37,212 bases of DNA from Deltaproteobacteria bacterium. GTDB taxonomy: Bacteria > Desulfobacterota > Syntrophia > Syntrophales > UBA2210. Below the pieces are notes generated by a model. That model was not told where the DNA came from, made no database searches, and saw only the letters and a program-made list of their open reading frames with translations. The stretch's first letter is position 1. Each line of letters starts with the position of its first letter. Position numbers and translations under genes: made by a program. Positions 9,144 through 14,026 of the stretch are shown here, piece by piece. The stretch covers positions 1 through 37,212 of the forward strand of contig JAFGGB010000051.1 of NCBI GenBank assembly GCA_016930775.1, read 5' to 3'.

Positions 9144-10478
9144 TTAAGCTTTGATAATCTTCTCGCGGTTGTTCGTCAAGTTTCTCGTGGCGTTTCGCGT
9201 GTCGATTACAAGCGGCGCCTGCTGGACAATCCATTTGTAGTCGTAATCGTCATGATCTGTAATAATTATAACGGCATCGATAGAGGCCAACAGCTGTGCC
9301 GACAAGGGAATCGATTCCATCGTAAAGTTGTGTTTCCGGGTCGGTTTGAGGTTTGGTATCCATGGGTCGTTGTACATAACCGCTGCGCCGGCGTCAATCA
9401 GCATCTTCATGACGACATATCCCGGCGATTCCCTGTCATCGTCAACATTTTTTTTATACGCCATTCCGAGAATCAGGAGGCTGCTTCCCTTTAAGCTTAG
9501 TTGGCGATTGTTTAGCGCTTCTTGAGTCCGTTGAACGACATATGTCGGCATGGATACATTGATTTCACCGGCCAGCTGTATGAAACGCGTGGCAAAGTCA
9601 TATTCTCGAGCTTTCCAAGAGAGATAGAAAGGATCGATCGGTATGCAATGCCCGCCGAGACCCGGACCGGGATAAAAGGGAGTATACCCGAATGGTTTCG
9701 TAGCTGCCGCCTCGATAACTTCGAATATATCGATGCCCATTTTATGGGCAAGCACCTTCAACTCGTTAACAAGTGCTATATTGACGGAACGGAAAGTATT
9801 TTCCAAAAGCTTGGTTAGTTCCGCCGCCCTCGTCGTCGATACGGGGACCACACGCGTAATCGTGCTGTAGAGCTCCGAGGCTGCTTCCAGACAGTTCGGC
9901 GTAACCCCGCCTACTATTTTTGGCGTGTTTCCTGCATTGAATTTTGTATTGCCGGGGTCCTCGCGTTCCGGTGAAAACGCAAGAAAAAAGTCCCTTCCTG
10001 CACGCCTTCCGTCAACGGCAAGACGAGGCAGGAGCAATTCTTCCGTTGTCCCGGGATATGTTGTGCTTTCGAGTACGATGAGCTGACCTTGACGGACATG
10101 GGCAGCTGCCGTATCAGCCGTCTGGATTAAGTACTTCAGATCTGGATCGAGGGTCTCCGTGAGAGGCGTGGGGACGCATATGACAATGCAGTCAGCTGCC
10201 GCAAGCCTGCTGAAGTCTTCCGTAGCATCAAATCGCGCCTCACTCATGGCTTTTGTGAGAGGTTCAATGGAAACATGCTTGATGTAGGATGTTCCGCGGT
10301 GAAGCTTGTCGATTTTATTGCCGTCGAGGTCAAACCCCACAACGGGAAATCCCTTTCCGACAAAATGTATCGCCAGGGGCAGCCCCACATATCCCAAGCC
10401 TATTATGGCAACCACGGCAGTCCTGTTCTCGATCTTTGCAAGGAGTTTTTCTTTCAAATTATCAATGTGTTCTTCCAT
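9144..10478 (-). CDS. Nucleotide sugar dehydrogenase (UDP-HexNAc/UDP-glucose 6-dehydrogenase family)
   Basis: A 444-residue NAD-dependent dehydrogenase that oxidises the C6 hydroxyl of a UDP-sugar to a carboxylate in two steps, for uronic-acid sugars of surface polysaccharide. An N-terminal Rossmann motif GLGYVG (27-32) is followed by the catalytic Cys278 in GGHCIPIDPFYL and a C-terminal UDP-binding domain (GMAYKKNVDDDRESPG). The GHCIPIDPFYL form is nearer to the WecC/WbpA/TviB branch (UDP-HexNAc) than to plain UDP-glucose dehydrogenases, but the substrate is not certain. I start at ATG 10478 because GGGAGG stands nine bases ahead; the open frame extends 14 codons further. No other polysaccharide gene is nearby, which is unusual. 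Confidence 0.88.
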   Translation of the reverse strand: MEEHIDNLKEKLLAKIENRTAVVAIIGLGYVGLPLAIHFVGKGFPVVGFDLDGNKIDKLHRGTSYIKHVSIEPLTKAMSEARFDATEDFSRLAAADCIVICVPTPLTETLDPDLKYLIQTADTAAAHVRQGQLIVLESTTYPGTTEELLLPRLAVDGRRAGRDFFLAFSPEREDPGNTKFNAGNTPKIVGGVTPNCLEAASELYSTITRVVPVSTTRAAELTKLLENTFRSVNIALVNELKVLAHKMGIDIFEVIEAAATKPFGYTPFYPGPGLGGHCIPIDPFYLSWKAREYDFATRFIQLAGEINVSMPTYVVQRTQEALNNRQLSLKGSSLLILGMAYKKNVDDDRESPGYVVMKMLIDAGAAVMYNDPWIPNLKPTRKHNFTMESIPLSAQLLASIDAVIIITDHDDYDYKWIVQQAPLVIDTRNATRNLTNNREKIIKA

Positions 10479-10587
10479 CGTGACGTTCCTCCCTGGACAA
10501 TGACTCTGCGTACGATCCAAGTTGTTCAGCTTCCTCCATATCGACCATATATAAATTGACTGCTAGTATCACAGCCTGCTTGCGATG

Positions 10588-12300
10588 TCATTTTCTTTTC
10601 ATAATATTTGACAGGACCCGATGCTTTTCGAAAAGGTTTTTTTCAACAGATTCCGAATAATTCTTAGCGTTCATAAGACTGCTTCTGTATCGATCGAGTA
10701 GCGATTCTTCGATTTTACAAAGACGACGTCGAGCTTCCTTCGCTGCTTTGATACGGAATCTTCCGTAAAAAAAATATCCTGCAATAAAGGAAAGGATGCC
10801 AAGGGTTCCGAGAGCCGAAAAACCGCGGGGACTAAAGAGCCGTTCCATCAGAGCGATTAACCCCCGGCTTAAAGATAAAATGCTCGGTTCGTTTGCGATA
10901 GAGAGCATCAAATCGCTGCCAGCGATTGCTGCGATGGCGAACAATGCCAGCAATCCATAAATTAAATACTGGCAGAGTCTGAAAAACAGCCATCTTGATC
11001 TTTCCGGGACAGAATCATGGTTGCCGCGAAGTTCTGAGGACCATATTTCAACATCGATTGTTTCTTCCGGTTGCATCTGCATAGAGAGCTCATCGACAAA
11101 GGAACCGCTCAACCCTTTCTTTAACAGCATCGTGGCAAGGCGCCCTATGGCTGCCTTCTGTTCGCGAAGAAAGATTTCATCCACAGCAGGAACGAGATCA
11201 TCGATTGCCTCTTTAATGCTGGTTGAATTTGTGGGGCCGTCGCCGACGATTCTATAGATGCCGTACGCTGGGCCGATTAAGTTGTGGGAGTCTTTCAAGG
11301 ATACCTGAATAGGTCCAAGCAACTTCTCCCTTAACAGGAACGAGAGTTTTTCATGAACCCGTTTTTCCGACTGTTTTGCTTCCTTATCCCATGTCTTACG
11401 TGCTATTCGCAGGCTGTCGCCGGCAATGGCAAGACGTTCATAAAGACCGGCAAGTGAATTCACGAGATCGTTTACCTCTTTATCCACATTCGCCGCTTTT
11501 ATGGTCGAAACTGCTTTTAAATCTCGATAGTGAAAAATCTCTCTTCTGAGAGCGGGAAACTGATTCCAAAGGTTCGGATGAGCGTTTTCGAGAATGTCCC
11601 GTGCCGAAATGATAAAGACCCGAGGATCGGGATCACCGGTGATATCAGTAACTCTTTCTCTGTATTGGCCTTCTATTGCTTCAAGATCGGCAAGACCTGC
11701 TTCAGCATGACTCGCCTGGAAAAGCAGATCAATTTTGTTGAGTATGTAAAAAAAATTTGTGGAAGCTTTCGGGGCCTTCCTCATAAGGTTGTAAAATCGT
11801 CCGTCCCCATATTTTTCCAGTGAGGCAACCCAGAGCAGCATGTCAAGATGCTGCATGAAAGAGCTAACCCTTGCCAGATGTTCGTCTTCAATGCTGTCGA
11901 AATCGGGCAGATCGCAGAGTATTATCTGCGAAACGAGAGGGATGTCATGTTGATGAAAATGATGCGGGAGATCTTCTTTAAGGAGAATTTTCGGCAATGA
12001 AGCATTTTTATAGTGATAGACGATAATGTCATCGGTATGGGGGCGCCGGTGACTCGCAGAAGAGATTTCCGCTCCCGCAAGGGCGTTCATTAACGTTGAT
12101 TTGCCTACGCCGGTGCCTCCGAGCAGACCGACAAGCAAATACGTCTCGGCAAGGTTGTCGATTGTTGCGATGAGCCGACGCGCTTCACTGGTCAACCGAA
12201 GCCTTTCCGCTTCCGGCATGTCAAGGAGGCGCCCGCCGGTGGAGAGAAATCTCTCGATGTCACTCGCCCTATTCCGTACGGCATCACTTTCCTTAGTCAT
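10588..12300 (-). CDS. Membrane-anchored GTPase, dynamin/Era-like (second of a pair)
   Basis: A 570-residue predicted GTPase. Motifs: G1 GGTGVGKST (61-69), a G2 Thr in RRPHTDD (about 89), G3 DLPDFDS (130-136) and G4 NKID (188-191). Helical, charged segments follow the G domain. Near residues 430-515 are two hydrophobic stretches (QYLIYGLLALFAIAAIAG; LGTLGILSFIAGYFFYG), then a basic helical tail. This order (G domain, helical bundle, paired membrane segment, helix) recalls bacterial dynamin-like proteins, but the match is by architecture only. Three ATGs in a row allow several starts; the third has GGAGA six bases ahead. It overlaps the upstream paralogue by eight bases. Confidence 0.7.
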   Translation of the reverse strand: MTKESDAVRNRASDIERFLSTGGRLLDMPEAERLRLTSEARRLIATIDNLAETYLLVGLLGGTGVGKSTLMNALAGAEISSASHRRPHTDDIIVYHYKNASLPKILLKEDLPHHFHQHDIPLVSQIILCDLPDFDSIEDEHLARVSSFMQHLDMLLWVASLEKYGDGRFYNLMRKAPKASTNFFYILNKIDLLFQASHAEAGLADLEAIEGQYRERVTDITGDPDPRVFIISARDILENAHPNLWNQFPALRREIFHYRDLKAVSTIKAANVDKEVNDLVNSLAGLYERLAIAGDSLRIARKTWDKEAKQSEKRVHEKLSFLLREKLLGPIQVSLKDSHNLIGPAYGIYRIVGDGPTNSTSIKEAIDDLVPAVDEIFLREQKAAIGRLATMLLKKGLSGSFVDELSMQMQPEETIDVEIWSSELRGNHDSVPERSRWLFFRLCQYLIYGLLALFAIAAIAGSDLMLSIANEPSILSLSRGLIALMERLFSPRGFSALGTLGILSFIAGYFFYGRFRIKAAKEARRRLCKIEESLLDRYRSSLMNAKNYSESVEKNLFEKHRVLSNIMKRK

Positions 12301-14026
12301 CATCATTCTCCAGAACCTTCATGCTGTTTCGAAGGGCAGAAACAACCTCAGTCTGTGTGAGCACTGAATGGATACACTGTTCATATCGCTTTATCTGGAG
12401 GTCTACAATTTCCGTCAGGACCTCCCGATATCGTTCGTTAAGTCTCCTGAGGGTAGTTTTTACTTCTCCATAGGCAAATACATTTACAGATCCGCTGCTT
12501 ATGACCGGGGCGAGAAATGTGTCAAGAAGAACCTCAAGCACGGTGATTCCCCCTCCCAGAATTACTTCGAAAGATAGTATGATTACAGCCCCAATGAACG
12601 ATGTCGTATATATGCCGATTTCCTTGGTCTTCGAAATGCCCCGGGTTAGCTCTTTGATTGATTCCGCAAGCCAAGAGGCCAGTTCTTCCTGACGATCGAT
12701 CATGAACTGCCGCACTTCCCCATCGCTGAGAGAGCGCAATGGTTCTCTCAGCGCCGAATAGAGAGGCGCTTCGGAATCCTTGGGCGAAAGTTGAGACAGT
12801 ACAGAGCGCTGTAAAGCATTGACCGCCGTGCAGACCGGCGTAACATCGATATGTTTAGGAACCTCTTGGAGGGCATCCAGGGGATTTTCTTTGTCTTGGC
12901 TTCGAAGTAAGCCGAAAAAGGTCAGGGGGAACGTAACAATTCTCCTCAGATAACGACGGGGACGGGCAAGAAAATCATAGCGCTGATAGATTCGCCTGAT
13001 TGCGCGGCTTACCTGTTCTTCATGCCTCCGGTCAAATCGTGACTCCCATGCGTCCACGAGGGATCGGCCCGCGATATCTCCAAGAGAGTGCAGTTCGTCA
13101 ATCCAACTCTCGGCGGCAATCCTCTCTTCGTTGAGAAGGTCATTGAGAATGGTGCAATCACGGATCAGCGACATTTTCTGTCGGCGTCTGTTTTTACTCA
13201 ATTCTACAGCGGTTCTGCTTGGACTCAATTCTCTTTGGATTAAACGGCTAAACCGCCTGAATTCCTCTGTTTTTTCAATTGATTCCGGAGTCATAGGAAC
13301 GATATAAGGAATCACGAAGAGTCGCGTTCCGGCAGCCGGAATTCCTTTGGTTTCGAGAATCGCCTCGCAATCTGTGGAATTGGCTCTCGGGTCTGTCTTG
13401 TTGAAAAGAACGTACCAGGGAATTTTTTCGGCAGCAATATTTGCGAGATAATTCAGTGGTTCAGCATCGGCGTATTTCTCCTGACTGGTTACGAATACGA
13501 CGGCATCTGCCATAAGGGCCAGTTTTTCCGTTATACTTTTGTGATGCTTCACGAGGCTGTCCACGTCGGGAGTATCGATTAATGCAAGATGACGGAAATC
13601 CTGGCGTTCATGCTCTATGACGGACCAGCCGCCGTTCTCTCTGTTTGACGTGTCATTGGTCGCCAAAATCGCCGGTGTAAAGACGGCCGGAATGTCAAAA
13701 GGACGAGTTTCAATGAATCCCGCAATCCGGTGCGCATAGACGACAGGCGCCGATGTGGTTGGACGGGCGGACCCCGCCGCACTGAGGACAGTGCCGCAGA
13801 GGGCGTTGAAAAGCGTCGATTTCCCCGTACCCGTACCTCCGGCAAATATAATCACGAGATATGATCTTTTTATCCTGTGTGCGTAAGCGGCCGCTTTTGC
13901 GAGGAGGTTCTCGGCGAGAAGGGGAATGGTTCCGCAAGAGGGGATGAGGCCCGCGGTTCGCACTCCCCGCAAAAGGTCGCTCAATCCACGTATCCTTTCA
14001 AGTCTATCGCCTGTTGAACCAGTCAT
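12293..14026 (-). CDS. Membrane-anchored GTPase, dynamin/Era-like (first of a pair)
   Basis: A 577-residue predicted GTPase, paralogous in layout to the next gene. Motifs: G1 GGTGTGKST (63-71), G2 RPTTSAP (Thr 90 or 91), G3 DTPDVDS (151-157), G4 NKTD (209-212). A long helical region follows, and a hydrophobic stretch near residues 485-520 (FIGAVIILSFEVILGGG, VLLDTFLAPVIS) suggests membrane insertion. The C-terminal tail is helical. The frame can be extended to a TTG at 14062, but the ATG at 14026 is preferred; a TATAAT lies at 14042-14047 just upstream. It is the first gene of the long minus-strand run. Role unknown; membrane remodelling is only an inference from architecture. Confidence 0.7.
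   Translation of the reverse strand: MTGSTGDRLERIRGLSDLLRGVRTAGLIPSCGTIPLLAENLLAKAAAYAHRIKRSYLVIIFAGGTGTGKSTLFNALCGTVLSAAGSARPTTSAPVVYAHRIAGFIETRPFDIPAVFTPAILATNDTSNRENGGWSVIEHERQDFRHLALIDTPDVDSLVKHHKSITEKLALMADAVVFVTSQEKYADAEPLNYLANIAAEKIPWYVLFNKTDPRANSTDCEAILETKGIPAAGTRLFVIPYIVPMTPESIEKTEEFRRFSRLIQRELSPSRTAVELSKNRRRQKMSLIRDCTILNDLLNEERIAAESWIDELHSLGDIAGRSLVDAWESRFDRRHEEQVSRAIRRIYQRYDFLARPRRYLRRIVTFPLTFFGLLRSQDKENPLDALQEVPKHIDVTPVCTAVNALQRSVLSQLSPKDSEAPLYSALREPLRSLSDGEVRQFMIDRQEELASWLAESIKELTRGISKTKEIGIYTTSFIGAVIILSFEVILGGGITVLEVLLDTFLAPVISSGSVNVFAYGEVKTTLRRLNERYREVLTEIVDLQIKRYEQCIHSVLTQTEVVSALRNSMKVLENDDD

Follow-up and report, generated by a model that had tools for sequence, protein, structure and literature searches.

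A conserved tandem pair of dynamin-like GTPases with a variant G3 motif in Desulfobacterota

Introduction

To our knowledge, only a small number of bacterial dynamins have an established role, and for most of them a partner is thought to be necessary. In Streptomyces, the dynamin-like proteins (DLPs) DynA and DynB stabilize Z-rings, and SepF is one of the DynAB partners. The mitofusins are mitochondrial fusion proteins in which the trunk ends in a membrane hairpin. Most bacterial DLPs are encoded as operon pairs for which the need of a partner is either known or suspected, and heterotypic pairing matters (PMC6104087), so that a tandem pair as such is already known. Here, we describe the adjacent genes A and B in a stretch of 37,212 nucleotides from a Deltaproteobacteria bacterium (contig JAFGGB010000051.1), which is referred to as the window. 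They form a real and ancient DLP pair that carries distinctive motifs (DxPDxDS and KYAD).

Results

Two Adjacent Genes Encode Paralogous Dynamin-Like Proteins

Genes A and B are paralogous DLPs encoded in tandem (Table 1). The N-terminal GTPase domains of both proteins score above the Pfam cut-offs for Dynamin_N and MMR_HSR1; by the same cut-offs, Dynamin_N matches all 43 relatives of A and 37 of the 39 relatives of B, and MMR_HSR1 matches 42/43 and 39/39, respectively. Outside the GTPase domain, no Pfam or NCBIfam model matched either protein above its cut-off. An hhalign comparison of the two families (probability 99.9, E 9e-35) shows A and B to be homologous over the GTPase domain and the initial helices of the trunk. 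We infer that the 14-bp overlap couples the translation of the two genes.

The sequence-only reading had interpreted this locus as a tandem of paralogous GTPases with bacterial dynamin-like architecture, and had proposed searches against dynamin, Era, septin, and DUF697/YfjP families. The gene limits and the kinship of the two genes hold, and the tandem is real and not due to chance; the proposed architecture agrees with the family searches, with the predicted structures and the comparison of their folds, and with the order and co-occurrence of the genes. Dynamin_N is thus above cut-off in both proteins, and neither of them matches the other three families over a curated cut-off: the Era models reach 24-35 bits (cut-off 237), the septin model 11.8 bits (cut-off 26.2), and DUF697 (YfjP-type) is absent among the Pfam matches listed for A and B. 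The HydF model also remained far under its cut-off. PDB searches with the single A and B sequences returned mostly P-loop matches, with IniA matched by A alone (E 0.098).

Table 1. Features of the A/B locus, in positions of the window.
Feature	Residues	Position	Strand	Remark
Gene A		12293-14026	minus	577 aa dynamin-like protein, first of the pair; ATG at 14026, start agrees with relatives
A, G1/P-loop GGTGTGKS	63-70	13817-13840	minus	GKS, with the GT before it, invariant across 43 relatives
A, variant G3 DTPDVDS	151-157	13556-13576	minus	Asp154 replaces Gly, 43/43
A, SQEKYAD	181-187	13466-13486	minus	E183, K184, Y185, and D187 invariant, 43/43
A, G4 NKTD	209-212	13391-13402	minus	Asp in only 7/43 relatives
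A, conserved hydrophobic trunk tip	476-511	12494-12601	minus	hydropathy over 43 relatives; low pLDDT
A/B overlap		12293-12306	minus	14 bp
Gene B		10588-12306	minus	572 aa dynamin-like protein with predicted membrane hairpin, second of the pair
B, G1/P-loop GGTGVGKS	63-70	12097-12120	minus	positions invariant in 39 relatives
B, variant G3 DLPDFDS	132-138	11893-11913	minus	Asp135 replaces Gly, 39/39
B, EKYGD	164-168	11803-11817	minus	K165, Y166, and D168 invariant, 39/39
B, G4 NKID	190-193	11728-11739	minus	N, K, and D invariant, 39/39
B, first predicted membrane helix	about 444-466	10909-10977	minus	hydropathy over 39 relatives; model helix 440-472
B, second predicted membrane helix	about 495-513	10768-10824	minus	opens the long return helix; hydropathy over 39 relatives and model
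UDP-glucose/GDP-mannose dehydrogenase		9144-10520	minus	between B and dtd

The GTPase Motifs Share a Variant G3 and Differ in G4

The P-loop and the G2 threonine are invariant in the A and B families alike. The G3 motif reads DxPDxDS in all 43 relatives of A and all 39 relatives of B, with an aspartate where GTPases usually carry a glycine, so the canonical form DxxG is found in neither family. For comparison, DSPG occupies this position in mitofusin-2, the PDB protein best matched by profile search. A further motif after G3, ending in KYAD (KYGD in some proteins), is common to both families. The G4 motif NKxD is complete in both proteins of the window, and its aspartate is kept in 39/39 relatives of B versus 7/43 relatives of A. 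A full set of G1-G4 motifs had been ascribed to both proteins; this stands for G1, G2, and the G4 of the window, but not for G3, which is DxPD, nor for the G4 aspartate, mostly lost among the relatives of A.

Since glycine is missing from the G3 of both A and B, hydrolysis may be slow or absent. To judge by their motifs, B would be the more regular GTPase, and A would have a relaxed choice of nucleotide.

Predicted Structures Consist of a GTPase Head and a Long Helical Trunk

A and B were modeled with AlphaFold2 as single chains using alignments of 39-43 sequences (pLDDT 84.9 for B and 79.5 for A). Both models comprise a GTPase head and a long helical trunk. In B, two N-terminal helices are followed by the GTPase domain and a 52-residue helix (286-337); the chain then forms a hydrophobic hairpin and returns in a helix of 78 residues (493-570). 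In A, the GTPase domain is followed by an 81-residue helix (269-349) and a hydrophobic tip modeled at low confidence, from which helices return; pLDDT falls below 50 at residues 351-358, 374-379, 468-472, and 492-513. Hydropathy averaged over relatives distinguishes two hydrophobic helices in B, whereas A has a single conserved stretch of ~36 residues, within which Glu487 is invariant. The trunk tip of A, which falls in a low-confidence region of the model, may be a membrane paddle. The helical segments and hydrophobic anchors earlier noted in both proteins are supported by the models and by hydropathy, and the helical trunk sought by structure prediction is seen in both models, together with a two-helix hairpin in B.

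The top Foldseek matches were BDLP, IniA, mitofusin, Cj-DLP1/2, and LeoA for B, and BDLP, DRP1, IniA, mitofusin, and Fzo1 for A. Comparison by VIA aligned B with Mfn1 (5gnt; Z 21.4, rmsd 6.8, 305 aligned) and A with Fzo1 (9kfd_B; Z 21.5, rmsd 5.1, 326 aligned). The whole-chain TM-scores against known DLPs are low (~0.2-0.4), so that the fold class of A and B is supported and their conformation is not.

The Pair Is Patchily Distributed and Kept Together

A total of 54 A-encoding loci were found among the named genome contigs, the informatively named ones being Syntrophales, Syntrophobacteraceae, Desulfobacterales, Desulfacinum, and Desulfomonile-type records. Among the 49 main-group A loci, 44 were long enough for gene order to be read, and in 41 of these B is the next gene after A and has the same orientation, an overlap of 4 bp being the most frequent arrangement. 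At two loci (L083 and L093) there is room beside A and B does not adjoin it; in the case of L083, B is found elsewhere in the genome, on other contigs.

In a survey of 395 genomes of the phylum (full-length matches at E<=1e-50), A was found in 33 genomes, B in 34, and both in 33 (hypergeometric 2e-47, relatedness ignored). In five genomes (G159, G364, G382, G436, and G329), A and B lie inside separate contigs, i.e., they are unlinked, and both are kept. Within the window's own family both genes occur in 7 of 18 other genomes, a patchy distribution. The conservation of the pair across Desulfobacterota, earlier named as a check, is thus borne out for the genomes that have it. As A and B stay together across distantly related bacteria, they probably form one two-part machine that bends or holds membranes.

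Several loci depart from the common arrangement. One genome (G048) has two complete A-B pairs (L082 and L095), each upstream of dtd-DUF1285-guaB-dnaE. At the Desulfomonile-type loci L130-L133, the genes after A encode not B but an M16 peptidase with two domains and HflX, and in four Desulfomonile-type genomes B is on another contig than A. At L128 (717-2419), A is split into three reading frames and B is intact, which reflects either a sequencing error or decay.

Gene Neighborhoods Differ between Clades

In the window, A and B are followed by genes for a UDP-sugar dehydrogenase, dtd, guaB, and dnaE. The UDP-sugar dehydrogenase gene is a local insertion: it is specific to the window and missing from this position in nine related loci that have dtd downstream of the pair. 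In the window's clade, a radical SAM/M16/M16/M20 block on the opposite strand occupies one flank and dtd-DUF1285-guaB-dnaE lies downstream, the gap to dtd in the closest relatives being 100-150 bp. Other clades have the arrangements DUF4126-A-B-PpiD/SurA-like and PgsA-type-A-B. The sequence-only reading had the pair leading a housekeeping run; the order of genes in that run is correct, but the run is clade-specific and its dehydrogenase is found in the window only. Because the neighbors differ between clades, assignment of a function from the UDP-sugar dehydrogenase, dnaE, or guaB was dropped. The scan for promoters and terminators gave weak consensus matches alone.

At L084 (8953-9939) and similar Syntrophobacteraceae-type loci, a gene for a DUF4126 membrane protein overlaps or abuts A. 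In this clade, the DUF4126 protein is possibly a third partner.

A and B Form Sister Clades with an Actinobacterial Member in Each

A search of a plasmid collection yielded one relative each of A and B, adjacent and in the same order in a single Nonomuraea gerenzanensis record of 11.85 Mb. The first gene scores 113 bits with the A profile versus 48 with the B profile, and the second 91 bits with the B profile versus 75 with the A profile; the two overlap by 4 bp, and their hydrophobic segments align with those of A and B. The record (L141, NZ_LT559118.1) is named 'plasmid I', a label that is probably wrong, as its size is that of a chromosome.

The tree was built from GTPase domains, leaving out Era, the inclusion of which blurred the B clade. 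A and B are sister clades (99/96 and 97/85) with one Nonomuraea protein in each, the actinobacterial side being a single record on long branches. This topology implies that either the A/B duplication predates the split of the lineages or the two genes moved jointly.

Two more DLPs are encoded in the window's own genome, on contigs C104 (L135, 1309-3018) and C169 (L136, 992-2671). They belong to the dynamin family and are similar to A and B in length, but are canonical, with DTPG at G3, fall outside the A/B clades, and are each a single gene within the stretch read. A transposase-like ORF lies alongside L136. Another single DLP lineage (L176, 342-2186; L177, 401-2200) has DTPDTDS at G3 and no KYAD, and falls just outside the A/B clades.

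Discussion

Two matched lineages that are found together over the phylum even when unlinked, and also in an actinomycete, make it likely that the unit of function is the pair itself. We consider it probable (about 0.75) that A and B work at the inner membrane as a heterotypic dynamin-like machine with two subunits. B, which keeps the G1, G2, and G4 residues and has the predicted hairpin, would be the anchored GTPase of the pair, held in the membrane by this two-helix element at the trunk end. A would bind nucleotide through its relaxed G4. The DxPDxDS/KYAD face that both GTPase domains have in common would let A dock head-to-head on B, and the conserved hydrophobic tip of the A trunk would insert into the membrane. 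Nucleotide-driven cycles of head pairing and trunk movement would then hold, tether, or curve the membrane. What the data show is the pair with its conservation and variant motifs, together with predicted heads, trunks, and hydrophobic segments; we infer that A and B associate physically, as well as the interface between their heads, the membrane insertion of A, and the remodeling activity. A membrane role fits the modeled anatomy of the pair. The residues by which it could be tested are the G3 aspartate, the KYAD motif, and the G4 aspartate lost in one partner alone, and since cultured hosts exist (Desulfacinum hydrothermale and Desulfoferrobacter suflitae), the question is open to experiment.

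As to the work done by such a machine, A/B could be the Desulfobacterota counterpart of DynA/DynB, stabilizing the FtsZ ring or the septal membrane, which we regard as possible but short of probable. The gene order is the same as that of Streptomyces dynA (vnz_12110) and dynB (vnz_12105), which form one operon (PMC6428758), and DynB has two transmembrane segments and interacts with DynA at the membrane, as proposed here for B and A (PMC8748795, PMC5827413). DynB is present in many actinobacteria besides Streptomyces (PMC8748795), and a homologous pair with the anatomy of A/B occurs in the actinomycete Nonomuraea. However, SepF (PF04472), a partner of DynAB, was above cut-off in 0/395 genomes of the phylum, with control genomes positive, and none of the loci examined had division genes beside the pair. 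The patchy distribution (33/395 genomes) further argues that A/B is not general division machinery.

Alternatively, A/B could be a membrane-surveillance or repair machine, similar to B. subtilis DynA or to the role proposed for Cj-DLP1/2, a reading that we likewise hold only tentatively. The structural similarity to IniA and to Cj-DLP1/2 and the accessory, patchy distribution are in line with it, as are the membrane-linked neighbors in other clades (the DUF4126 membrane protein, the PpiD/SurA-like chaperone, and the PgsA-type enzyme); these neighbors vary, and thus the evidence they give is weak, and the window's own clade has no stress-linked or export neighbors. For A/B, we give roughly the same likelihood to work at the division site and to maintenance of the inner membrane.

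Anti-phage defense of the LeoA/LeoBC (Eleos) kind is very improbable: PADLOC gave weak matches to LeoBC and LeoA (16-30 bits), limited to the GTPase region and never full-length, the pair lies among housekeeping genes with clade-level synteny, and 142 pattern matches in viral contigs included 0 confirmed relatives. The PADLOC defense identity was rejected on account of these weak, GTPase-restricted matches. Lastly, the MMR_HSR1 and Era models do match both GTPase domains, but the idea of unrelated Era/ribosome-biogenesis P-loop GTPases adjoining by chance can hardly be entertained, being contradicted by the near-perfect co-occurrence and order, the sister clades, the long trunk and membrane helices of the predicted structures, and Era and HydF scores far below cut-offs.

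Comparison with Known Systems

The two-subunit machine proposed for A/B has counterparts of several kinds among described DLPs. Nostoc BDLP and mycobacterial IniA share the GTPase head, neck, and trunk and are top Foldseek matches, but their sequence similarity is low, and the DxPD G3 and KYAD belong to A/B. The mitofusins and Fzo1 are the best VIA matches, and the predicted hairpin of B resembles that of the mitofusins in its place at the trunk end, whereas these proteins are eukaryotic and mitochondrial, and the G3 of mitofusin-2 is of the glycine-containing form. Cj-DLP1/Cj-DLP2 are an adjacent heterotypic DLP pair (PMC6104087) with which the predicted folds of A and B align; unlike in fold, they have no sequence match to A/B in the PDB profile search, and the larger Campylobacter jejuni chain has ~700 residues versus 577 for A and 572 for B.

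Streptomyces DynA/DynB share with A/B an operon arrangement, an A-type gene in first place, and a second protein with two membrane helices, predicted in the case of B; they differ by the SepF partner, missing in this phylum, and by the host, a sporulating actinomycete versus one of the Desulfobacterota type. It is conceivable, though less likely than not, that A/B is in full a DynA/DynB-type pair with a shared variant G3, in which a GTPase anchored in the membrane is joined by a partner with relaxed nucleotide choice. Such a pair would be older than the divergence of actinobacteria from Desulfobacterota, and in sulfate reducers and syntrophs it would work without SepF, either at the inner membrane or where the cell divides. 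Because SepF had no match in the 395 genomes and the likeness was drawn from features other than the DynA/DynB sequences, A/B is better said to work like DynA/DynB than to be DynA/DynB, a pair that it resembles in its predicted anatomy and gene order.
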